From Actinomadura sp. DC4 (GTDB lineage: Bacteria; Actinomycetota; Actinomycetes; Streptosporangiales; Streptosporangiaceae), in the NCBI RefSeq assembly GCF_030406325.1, contig NZ_JAUEQY010000008.1, positions 62,001 through 126,000 on the forward strand: a stretch of DNA of 64,000 nt, in the 5' to 3' direction. This document shows, piece by piece, positions 47,113 to 50,115 of this stretch (positions within the stretch are counted from its first letter, which is position 1; the number at the start of each line of letters is the position of its first letter). The translations under genes and the position numbers were made by a program. A model generated the notes under the pieces. It worked only from the letters and a program-made list of their open reading frames with translations. It did no database searches and had not been told where the DNA came from.

Positions 47113-47142
47113 TTGACTGAAGCAACGGGGAAAACTTACCCT
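47113..47142 (+). promoter_or_regulatory. Candidate promoter of the lanthipeptide operon
   Basis: TTGACT (47113-47118) and TACCCT (47137-47142), spacer 18 bp, lie in an AT-rich island between the LysR stop and the synthetase. GGAGGG (47179-47184) then precedes GTG 47191 by 6 bases, which fixes the start codon. Confidence 0.55.
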
Positions 47143-47190
47143 CCGTAAAGGTCGATCTTGACCGCTCGCCGGCGACCTGGAGGGCTGACC

Positions 47191-49950
47191 GTGCCGGCAC
47201 CGTCGTCGCGGTACGACCCGGAGATCTACGCCCGGGTCGTACGGGCCCGGCTGCCCGCCGGCTGGCGGCTCGACCGCGCCGGGACCTGGACGCACGCCGC
47301 GCCCGAGGGCGCTCGCCTACGCGACCAGGGCTGGAAGATCCACCTGTCGGCCGTGCCGCCGTCCGCCGAGCGGGTCCTGGACACGGTCACGCCCGTGCTC
47401 GCGGAGGCGGGCTGCCCGTTCAAGTTCGCCGCCTCACCGGCCGAGATCGCCCGTCTGACGGGACGGCACTTCGACCGCGCCTCGGCCGGGAAGTTCCTCA
47501 CCGTCTATCCGCCCGACGACGCCGGCGTGGCGGCGCTGGCCGAGGCGCTGCACCGGGCCACGGAGGGCCTGGCGGGCCCACGCATCCTGTCCGACCGCCC
47601 GTACCGGCCCGGCAGCCTGGTGCACTTCCGCTTCGGCGGTTTCGTGCGCAAGGTGCGGCTGGCCGGAAACGGTGTCTACGAGCCCGTCGTGACCGCGCCG
47701 GACGGTACGTGCGTCCCCGACCGGCGGTCGGCCTGGTTCGAACCGCCGTCCTGGGCGCCCTCCAGCCCCTTCGGCGAACCGGCCGAGGCTCCTGGGGCCG
47801 CACCGCGCGGGGTGCTGATCGGGGACCGGTTCCTGCTGCGCGGCGCCATCCGGCACGCCAACAAGGGCGGCGTCTTCCGCGCCACGGACCGTACGACGGG
47901 CCGGGAGGTCGTGGTCAAGCAGGGCCGCCGGTACGTCGAGGTACGGCCTGACGGCGGCGACGTACGTGACCTGCTGCGCAACGAGGCGCGTCTGCTCGGC
48001 CGCCTCGCCGCGACGGGAGTCGTGCCCCGCGTCCACGCCCTGATCGAACTCCCCGAGCACGCCTTCCTGGCCGTCGAGGCCATCGACGGCGTGTCGCTGA
48101 GCGTCCACCTGCAGCGTCTCCACCGGGGAGGCGGGCCGGACGAGCGTGCGGTCCTGCGTACGGCGGGCAGGCTCGTGGACCTGGTCGCCGCCGTCCACCG
48201 CGAGGGTGTGGTCATCCGCGACCTGACCCCGGCGAACGTCCTGGTCCTCCCGGACGGCGACCTGCGCCTGATCGACCTGGAACTGGCCGGCACGCCGGAC
48301 GAGGACGCCGTCCCCGGCGGCTCCCCGGGCTACGCGGCCCCGGAACAGTGGACCGCCCGGCGCGCCACCCCGGCCGCCGACCTGTACGGCCTGGGCGCGA
48401 TCCTCTTCGCCCTGACGACGGGCGCCGAGCCGATCCTGGCGAATGACGACCGCGACACCCATCGGCGGCTCGACGACTGGCTGACCCGCGCCGCCCGCGA
48501 CCTCCCGCTCGCCGCCGCCCTCCGCCCCCTGATCCTGGCGCTGCTGCGGGAGGACCCCGCCCTCCGCCCACCGCTCGACCGGGTACAAGAGGCCCTTCAC
48601 GAGACCGCCGGCAATGGTTCGGCCGGGGGACGGGGCCATGGCGTCGCCCTGGGGCCGGCAGGGCGGGGGCCCGGGGCCGGGCGTGACGACGTGGAGCGGC
48701 TGCTGGGCGACGGGCTCGCGTATCTCGTCGGTTCCGGTGGCCGGGACGTCGATCCGGACCGGCTCTCCGAGCCGGGTGCCGGGCGCTGGTGGCCCGCCGA
48801 CCTGTTCGGGGCCACCACCGATCCCGGCAACCTCTACTACGGCGCGGCGGGCATCCTCGGCGTCCTCGCGACGGCCCTGCGGCACCGGCCCACGCCCGAG
48901 ATCCGCACCGCCACCGAACGCGCCGCCCGGCACCTCGAAAGAGCGGCCGCGCGGGAACCTCTCGTCCTGCCCGGCCTGCACTTCGGGCGCTCCGGCACGT
49001 ACTGGGCGCTCCTCGAAGCGGGCATCGCGCTCCAGGACGAGGACCTCATCGCCCGGACCGCCGACGCCGCCGAGCGGCTCCCCGTCTCCGGGCCGGTGCC
49101 GGACGTCAGCCACGGGATCGCCGGAGCGGGGCTGACCGCCCTGCGGTTCTGGCGGCACACCGGCCGGGAGACCTTCCTCGGCCAGGCCGGGGAGTGCGCC
49201 GACGCGCTGCTGACGGCGGCCGTCCGTGACGGCGACGGCATCGTCTGGCCCGTCCCGCCCCACCCGCCCCAGTTGCCCGACGGCGCCACCCACCACGGCT
49301 TCGCGCACGGCACCGCGGGCATCGCCGCCTTCCTCCTCGACGCGGCCACCGCCACAGGACGCGCCGACTGCCGCGAAGCGGCCGACCAGGCCGGCCGTAC
49401 ACTGCTCGCCGCCACGCTCTGGGGCACGGGCGGCACCGCCCGCTGGAGCGCCGGGCCGGGCGACGACGTGCCCCTCACCGGCTGGTGCAGCGGCGCCGCC
49501 GGCGTCGGCGGTTTCCTGGTGCGGCTGTGGCGCGCGACGGGAGCGCCCGCCCTGCTCACCACGGCCGAGGGCGCCGCGGCCGCCGTACGGCACGACATCT
49601 GGCAGTCCCGGCCCGTGAACTGTCACGGCAACGCCGGCTCCATCGGCTACCTGCTCGACCTCGCCGACGCGACCGGCGAGGAGTCCTACCGGGACCGGGC
49701 GCGCGAGGCCGTCTCCGCGCTCGCCGCCCGCGCGGTGGTCCGCGACGGGCTGCTCCTCACCCCCGACCACACCGGCCTGGAGGTCTTTCCCGGCTGGGGC
49801 GTCGGCACCGCCGGCGTCACCGCCGCCCTGCTCCGCCTGGACGGCTCCCCGGTGAGCCTGTTCATGCCGCCGATCGAGGCGGCCCTGAGAACGTGCGGCG
49901 CGATGTCGCACCGATCGAGTCCCATCCCCTCAGAAAGGAAACGCCGATGA
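47191..49950 (+). CDS. Class IV lanthipeptide synthetase (LanL)
   Basis: 919 residues, three domains. A lyase domain (about 1-200) has KIHLSAVPPS with Lys49 and His51, CPFKFAASP, GKFLTVYPPDD and HFRFGGFVRKV. A Ser/Thr-kinase-like domain (about 210-470) has Lys243 (VVVKQGR), Asp344 and Asn349 in VIRDLTPANVLV, and Asp362 in LIDLELAG. A LanC-like cyclase (about 500-919) has the zinc ligands Cys766 (GWCSGAAG), Cys811 and His812 (NCHGNAGS). The intact zinc site indicates class IV rather than class III (LanKC). It would phosphorylate Ser/Thr, eliminate phosphate and close thioether rings on the peptide encoded next. GTG 47191 is set by GGAGGG. Confidence 0.92.
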   Translation: MPAPSSRYDPEIYARVVRARLPAGWRLDRAGTWTHAAPEGARLRDQGWKIHLSAVPPSAERVLDTVTPVLAEAGCPFKFAASPAEIARLTGRHFDRASAGKFLTVYPPDDAGVAALAEALHRATEGLAGPRILSDRPYRPGSLVHFRFGGFVRKVRLAGNGVYEPVVTAPDGTCVPDRRSAWFEPPSWAPSSPFGEPAEAPGAAPRGVLIGDRFLLRGAIRHANKGGVFRATDRTTGREVVVKQGRRYVEVRPDGGDVRDLLRNEARLLGRLAATGVVPRVHALIELPEHAFLAVEAIDGVSLSVHLQRLHRGGGPDERAVLRTAGRLVDLVAAVHREGVVIRDLTPANVLVLPDGDLRLIDLELAGTPDEDAVPGGSPGYAAPEQWTARRATPAADLYGLGAILFALTTGAEPILANDDRDTHRRLDDWLTRAARDLPLAAALRPLILALLREDPALRPPLDRVQEALHETAGNGSAGGRGHGVALGPAGRGPGAGRDDVERLLGDGLAYLVGSGGRDVDPDRLSEPGAGRWWPADLFGATTDPGNLYYGAAGILGVLATALRHRPTPEIRTATERAARHLERAAAREPLVLPGLHFGRSGTYWALLEAGIALQDEDLIARTADAAERLPVSGPVPDVSHGIAGAGLTALRFWRHTGRETFLGQAGECADALLTAAVRDGDGIVWPVPPHPPQLPDGATHHGFAHGTAGIAAFLLDAATATGRADCREAADQAGRTLLAATLWGTGGTARWSAGPGDDVPLTGWCSGAAGVGGFLVRLWRATGAPALLTTAEGAAAAVRHDIWQSRPVNCHGNAGSIGYLLDLADATGEESYRDRAREAVSALAARAVVRDGLLLTPDHTGLEVFPGWGVGTAGVTAALLRLDGSPVSLFMPPIEAALRTCGAMSHRSSPIPSERKRR

Positions 49951-50066
49951 TCACAGCCGACCTGGACGAACTGCAGCGGCTGCCCGAGGAGACCGTGGCC
50001 GAGGACCGGACGCCCTGCATCCCCGCCGCGGCGGACCGGGTACCGACCTGGACCACCGTCTGCTGA
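49947..50066 (+). CDS. Lanthipeptide precursor peptide (LanA)
   Basis: 39 residues starting in an ATGA overlap with the synthetase stop, with AAAGGAA upstream. The leader (about residues 1-21) holds LDELQRLPEE, an amphipathic helix like the LxLQ motif of class III/IV leaders. The C-terminal part, TPCIPAAADRVPTWTTVC, has Cys24, the terminal Cys39 and Thr22, 34, 36 and 37, with no Ser. Plausible rings are Thr22-Cys24 and one of Thr34/36/37 to Cys39, with spare dehydrobutyrines. TVC recalls the TVC of venezuelin-type cores. No dedicated protease or transporter gene lies beside it. Ring pattern and cleavage site are inferred. Confidence 0.85.
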   Translation: MITADLDELQRLPEETVAEDRTPCIPAAADRVPTWTTVC

Positions 50067-50078
50067 TCTGAGCGACGC

Positions 50079-50115
50079 GGCCGGGGCTCTCGAATCGGAA
50101 AAGGGAGCCCCGGCC
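50079..50115 (+). terminator. Terminator after the lanthipeptide operon
   Basis: GGCCGGGGCTC (50079-50089) and GAGCCCCGGCC (50105-50115) make an 11-bp perfect stem, extendable by two pairs, followed by CTGTCTTCC. It lies 13 bp after the precursor stop and ends the two-gene operon. Confidence 0.8.

Follow-up and report, generated by a model that had tools for sequence, protein, structure and literature searches.

When a lanthionine synthetase gene is followed by a very short open reading frame, is that frame the precursor gene of a lanthipeptide, and if so, is the pair of an unusual kind? Such a pair lies in a 64,000-nucleotide stretch of the Actinomadura sp. DC4 genome (the window; NCBI RefSeq assembly GCF_030406325.1, contig NZ_JAUEQY010000008.1, positions 62,001 to 126,000 of the forward strand), where lanL encodes a class IV synthetase of 919 amino acids (aa) and lanA a peptide of 39 aa. 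We regard the pair as a class IV lanthipeptide operon of two genes, with a probability of roughly 0.9. The class of the enzyme, its intact active sites, the reality of the precursor and the extent of the operon can be read from sequence comparisons, and the operon is genuine, probably functional and of a known architectural class. What is new is the sequence of LanA, which lies outside the precursor models of NCBIfam, while the kind of pathway is already known.

The gene lanL (47,191..49,950, forward strand) has a GTG start and a TGA stop, and its product reached 917.9 bits against the NCBIfam class IV model NF038150 (cut-off 650) and 472.8 bits against the class III model NF038151, which is under the cut-off of the latter (575). 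Three Pfam domains follow each other in one chain, i.e. RamC_N (residues 15-200), which we take to be the lyase region, Pkinase (225-463) and LANC_like (545-884). The last carries a Cys-Cys-His zinc site, and the residue numbers given for it in the initial annotation (Cys766, Cys811, His812) are exact, with the motifs GWCSG and NCHGN beginning at 764 and 810. We aligned 73 LanL sequences, namely the window protein, loci chosen from the family search, two further loci and a single protein from Kitasatospora (L118, a duplicate, was dropped). Eleven residues selected among the lyase and kinase motif positions, others of which vary, were identical in 73/73 (K49, H51, K101, Y106, D135, R147, K243, E265, D344, N349 and D362); these motifs are the catalytic ones of their families. 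Of the zinc ligands, C766 and C811 were present in 72/73 each and H812 in 64/73. In eight of the 73 LanL-type proteins a Cys replaces the zinc-binding His812, which suggests that some of these enzymes hold their zinc by three Cys. The closest solved structure by sequence was chain 8car_A.

The gene lanA (49,947..50,066, forward strand, ATG start, TGA stop) encodes MITADLDELQRLPEETVAEDRTPCIPAAADRVPTWTTVC. Its start shares the bases ATGA with the lanL stop, so the overlap noted earlier is real and spans 4 bases, and so are the two Cys and the lack of Ser in the presumed core TPCIPAAADRVPTWTTVC, which also has four Thr. The leader would span about residues 1-21 and the core about 22-39. Searching 341 genomes of the family at an E-value of 0.01, we obtained five positive genomes including our own, with two matches from the same genus at 3e-20 and 5e-20. 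In all, three of the eight genomes of the genus (our own, G006 and G011) encode a LanA ortholog, directly after LanL in each; the orthologous peptide-LanL pairs that the initial annotation had proposed to look for thus exist. Both orthologs sit at the same locus and are 92% identical to the window peptide, no copy departs from the others at the two Cys or four Thr of the core, and a single one of 18 core positions varies across the three species. The accompanying LanL proteins are 75.8% and 71.7% identical to that of the window over the alignment. Changes in codons 17-39 were mostly silent, with five silent and no amino-acid changes against G006 (P 0.0002), four and one against the third orthologous locus, L007 (P 0.019), and six and one between G006 and L007 (P 0.0012), under a crude random-substitution model and for three pairs that are not independent. 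The 92% identity at the same locus together with fewer amino-acid changes than that model predicts takes the conservation of LanA beyond chance, and on these comparisons LanA is a real gene. Two of the five family positives, as well as 11 of 12 among 394 genomes of the class, were weak local matches that we ascribe to chance, because no LanL was found in 14 loci (about 1.5 kb or less per side); a further match in our own genome (E 2.4) was also taken as chance. LanA searches of plasmids and of viral contigs gave no match. The core strings were not found in the full-text literature searched, which excludes most subscription papers and supplements, so that their absence in print is unproven.

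The genomic site tells how much belongs to the unit. In our own genome (G000), G006 and G011, lanL-lanA lies between genes for a LysR-type regulator and a histidine phosphatase, past which follow a ResA-like protein, a DsbD-type membrane protein, ResB and CcsB (the synteny of ResB was measured only imperfectly). G007, of the same genus, has regulator and phosphatase side by side, their matched ends about 0.16 kb apart, with neither LanL nor peptide between them, and in Nonomuraea gerenzanensis they lie about 0.1 kb apart without the pair. The flanks are thus joined without the pair in both, and the unit is therefore lanL-lanA alone, which comes or goes as such by this comparison and bears out the earlier description of a self-contained two-gene unit. 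The upstream LysR regulator and an EamA exporter were considered as cluster members and rejected, because G007 has both genes but lacks lanL-lanA. The two flanking neighbours are 11-13 kb apart in G008 and G012, and the window LanL and LanA had no match in the stretches from G007 to G010 and G012, the one from G009 covering part of the 23 kb that separate the neighbours there. In G010 (L157, G010:C248:14000-24000) two short fragments matching the LysR gene are all that is left of it beside the phosphatase, which suggests that the regulator has decayed there.

LanA also has the leader expected of a class IV precursor. Its segment DLDELQRLPE can be aligned to DVQDLQALPE, DIRDLQELPE and comparable parts of the precursors beside other LanL genes, and with an adjacent precursor carrying this motif and a core of Thr and Cys we assign the leader to the class IV type. 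Several points weigh against our reading of the locus, and part of them concern this very comparison. Against shuffled sequences the leader gave P values of 0.0025-0.041 for eight of ten other precursors, which are modest and uncorrected for ten tests, and it failed for the remaining two (L132, L109). L9, Q10 and L12 are invariant in 11 aligned precursors, of which three are the LanA family itself and from which the precursors with ALD leaders (such as L109, L127 and L116) were left out. The evidence is also partly circular, because some comparison peptides were chosen by their leucine-spacing motif. Moreover, all three known LanA copies come from one genus, and LanA matches no NCBIfam precursor model at an E-value of 10, so that the cut-offs of ALQxL (NF038157, 19 bits), VenA (NF038147, 35 bits) and SflA (NF038148, 25 bits) are not reached. 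Four of seven precursor peptides scanned against NCBIfam exceeded the cut-off for ALQxL or SflA, and failing these models is not unique to LanA, since the candidates at L120 and L119 also match none. Finally, neither an ABC exporter nor a protease lies beside lanL-lanA, and the predicted leader protease is not tied to any one of the six Peptidase_M1 matches in the genome, which are common enzymes and by themselves no proof.

Two further explanations would deny a working enzyme-substrate pair. The short reading frame might be incidental and the true precursor encoded elsewhere, as the missing NCBIfam match and the candidate precursors found 1.65-2.45 kb after LanL at some other loci might be taken to imply; with its position, sequence and silent-site bias kept in three species and a leader of the class IV type, however, we consider this barely credible. 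Somewhat less improbable, though still very unlikely, is that the pair has lost its activity in this strain or is decaying there as a remnant. LanL does diverge faster than its surroundings (75% and 70% identity against 84-94% for eight flanking genes) and its C-terminal end varies in frame and length among the three species, but lanL has no internal stop, its zinc ligands and the listed motif residues are kept, and the changes in the core are mostly silent. A working two-gene operon thus remains the reading we prefer.

If LanL and LanA work together, LanL would bind the leader at LDELQRLPE, its kinase would phosphorylate Thr residues of the core and its lyase would remove the phosphate to leave dehydrobutyrine (Dhb). 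The zinc cyclase could then add Cys24 and Cys39 to two dehydrated Thr, giving at most two methyllanthionine rings, and the remaining core Thr would stay Thr or Dhb. Cys39 would most simply close a small ring with Thr36, and Cys24 might close either with Thr22, in a very small ring, or backwards with Thr34, as in venezuelin. The leader would be cut off, perhaps near Arg21-Thr22, by a protease whose gene lies elsewhere; the SflA leader is cut by an unclustered AplP-like protease according to PMC10885120. Dehydration, ring pattern, cleavage site, export and function of LanA are all predictions of this kind. Untagged LanA with its initial Met has a calculated [M+H]+ of 4327.10, which every dehydration would lower by 18.01 (to 4291.08 after two and 4255.06 after four), and the core less two waters one of 1865.90. 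Within the same reading, LanA might be modified without forming two rings, by dehydration only, with one thioether and a free Cys, or with a disulfide. This is suggested by Thr22 being the sole core Thr N-terminal to Cys24, where a Thr-Pro-Cys ring would be very small, but the zinc cyclase site is intact and reversed rings from Cys to a dehydrated residue have been assigned in venezuelin (Cys34-Dhb39 and Cys45-Dha49, proposed in PMC2843593), and we hold two rings to be the better prediction and their absence to be possible, if unlikely. Characterised class IV products are few; two were counted in 2022 by a paper that added another two (PMC9576775). With just two genes and a short, strongly kept two-Cys core, the system should lend itself to reconstitution, which would tell whether the rings formed by such cores are non-overlapping or reversed.

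How far core conservation speaks for a fixed function was judged against controls from the MSFDV group, 15 LanL loci of the same family (L097-L105, L128-L130 and L132-L134), several from close relatives of each other. The C-terminal half of the precursor was 95-100% identical in the three pairs of the window group, and averaged 54% in 94 MSFDV pairs with LanL identity of 60-80%, one of which reached 95%. Among 12 control pairs with LanL identity of 70-79%, six reached about 89% and one 100%. The window group therefore lies at the upper end of the controls and not outside them, and we partly reject core conservation as proof of a fixed function. It remains rather doubtful that this is an exporter-less, genus-restricted peptide with a near-fixed core, whose gene is under inverted-repeat control and which has a fixed role, e.g. 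as a signal, instead of being a diversifying antibiotic. If it were so, a small proline-rich two-ring peptide would have been held constant while LanL drifted to 72-76% identity.

The inverted repeat in question belongs to a conserved block just upstream of lanA (49,889..49,922, forward strand), in which 30/34 positions are identical in the three genomes, compared with 39/68 in the LanL end before it, 9/24 in the spacer after it and 30/114 after lanA. It contains the 7-bp repeat GTGCGGC, 5 bases, GCCGCAC, whose window copy has one position mismatched as DNA (G-U as RNA). The block is not kept as protein, as the L007 LanL ends within it and the frame in which it is read up to the ATGA differs between the window and G006. 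Allowing up to three mismatches, it occurs once in every one of the three genomes bearing the pair and nowhere in the other five of the genus. We limit our claim to sequence conservation and reject RNA structure as a claim, because the block folded no better than shuffles (z 0.57, -1.09 and -0.10). It may possibly serve as an operator, as a site of processing or as an internal start of lanA transcription or translation, and a DNA operator would fit equally well. Such a block could show how the amounts of enzyme and substrate are set apart within one operon, and together with the strictly kept core it is a part of the locus worth a closer look.

Other signals around the pair were read from the sequence. 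A ribosome-binding site, AGAAAGGAA (49,932..49,940, forward strand), precedes lanA, and GAAAGGAA precedes its ATG in 3/3 genomes bearing the pair. The overlap of lanA start and lanL stop recurs in G006, and in L007 lanL ends 28 bases earlier. The proposed promoter of lanL-lanA (47,113..47,142, forward strand; TTGACT at 47,113-47,118, 18 bases, TACCCT at 47,137-47,142) was found by eye and holds in part. TACC[C/A]T followed by CCGTAAAG is kept in the two orthologous loci, and hence in three genomes, but TTGACT is not, and a consensus promoter scan of the window lists none there. Similarly, the proposed terminator corresponds to a 13-bp terminator-like hairpin 3' of lanA (50,079..50,115, forward strand, fold z -4.1), and both orthologs have a hairpin there too, of different sequence (z -3.3 and -4.3); lacking a T tract, the hairpin after lanA does not appear in the terminator scan.

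Set beside known systems, most of what had seemed unusual about the locus turns out to be ordinary. The order of synthetase before precursor, the missing peptidase and the two-Cys precursor had been singled out, and these, like the overlap, are found in one or another of three systems, the ven cluster of Streptomyces venezuelae, the MSFDV loci and a Kitasatospora plasmid. In PMC2843593, ven is described as venL followed by venA without protease or regulatory genes, and the venezuelin LanL as a three-domain enzyme with a zinc cyclase like that of the window; unlike LanA, venezuelin has four Cys, for which four overlapping rings were proposed. The MSFDV loci also have LanL followed directly by a two-Cys precursor, of 36-41 aa with an LQ-type leader (one, scanned against NCBIfam, matches ALQxL), although their cores are of the type NC-x-KH-x-GCTDN, unlike that of the window. 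Similar in layout is the ALQxL-type system (NF038157) on a plasmid of Kitasatospora sp. NBC_00039, with LanL first, a 4-base overlap of lanL and precursor, 39 aa, two Cys and a leader with LQ-x-L, which reads ELQRL in the window. It has two 39-aa precursor copies where the window has one, the LanL proteins are 43.6% identical and the cores are unrelated. The three orthologs make up one clade of the LanL tree (support 1.0) with L115 as sister (0.83), inside a wider branch of 19 members that includes the Kitasatospora system with a weak support of 0.57. A class IV peptide with two non-interlaced thioether rings is SflA of Streptomyces sp. NRRL S-1022, as described in PMC8358304 and PMC10885120; LanA gave no score against its model NF038148.

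The missing transporter, also called unusual, is a modest but real difference. In ven, the transporter genes venT and venH follow venA (PMC2843593), and an ABC ATPase motif occurs in 12/15 examined MSFDV stretches (one doubtful), whereas around the three orthologous pairs a motif scan detected no such motif up to a distance of about 6 kb. The Kitasatospora region has no ABC transporter among nine annotated features either, in an incomplete gene table, and an MFS transporter upstream. Across all LanL loci, the motif was found in 15/72 (L118 dropped as duplicate; L132, one long open frame, is doubtful), a count from a motif scan and not a family search, in which 41/72 loci span at least 2.5 kb after LanL. 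Of three plasmid LanL regions examined, the Kitasatospora one was the only one with annotated precursors. In that of Streptomyces sp. NBC_00289 no precursor is annotated and a gene for an ABC transporter follows lanL at 2.3 kb, and the LanL region of the S. clavuligerus record is not annotated at all.

Precursor placement varied among LanL loci. In a motif scan of 22 further loci, 14 had a downstream candidate precursor, seven of them within about 0.35 kb, and eight had none. At L116, L125, L111, L114, L126 and L120, two to four tandem candidates lie 1.65-2.45 kb past the LanL stop. The genome of Actinomadura sp. DC4 itself holds a second class IV LanL (L119, G000:C20:33716-46181; LanL at G000:C20:38716-41181), with an upstream candidate precursor, MLTLTEPRDAGAIQPESLAGVPSDVPQIQAGSCTVCHWGRTLLCDDFSTQA. 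This candidate matches no NCBIfam model, although the peptide upstream of LanL in L124, which resembles it, exceeds the cut-off of the SflA model.

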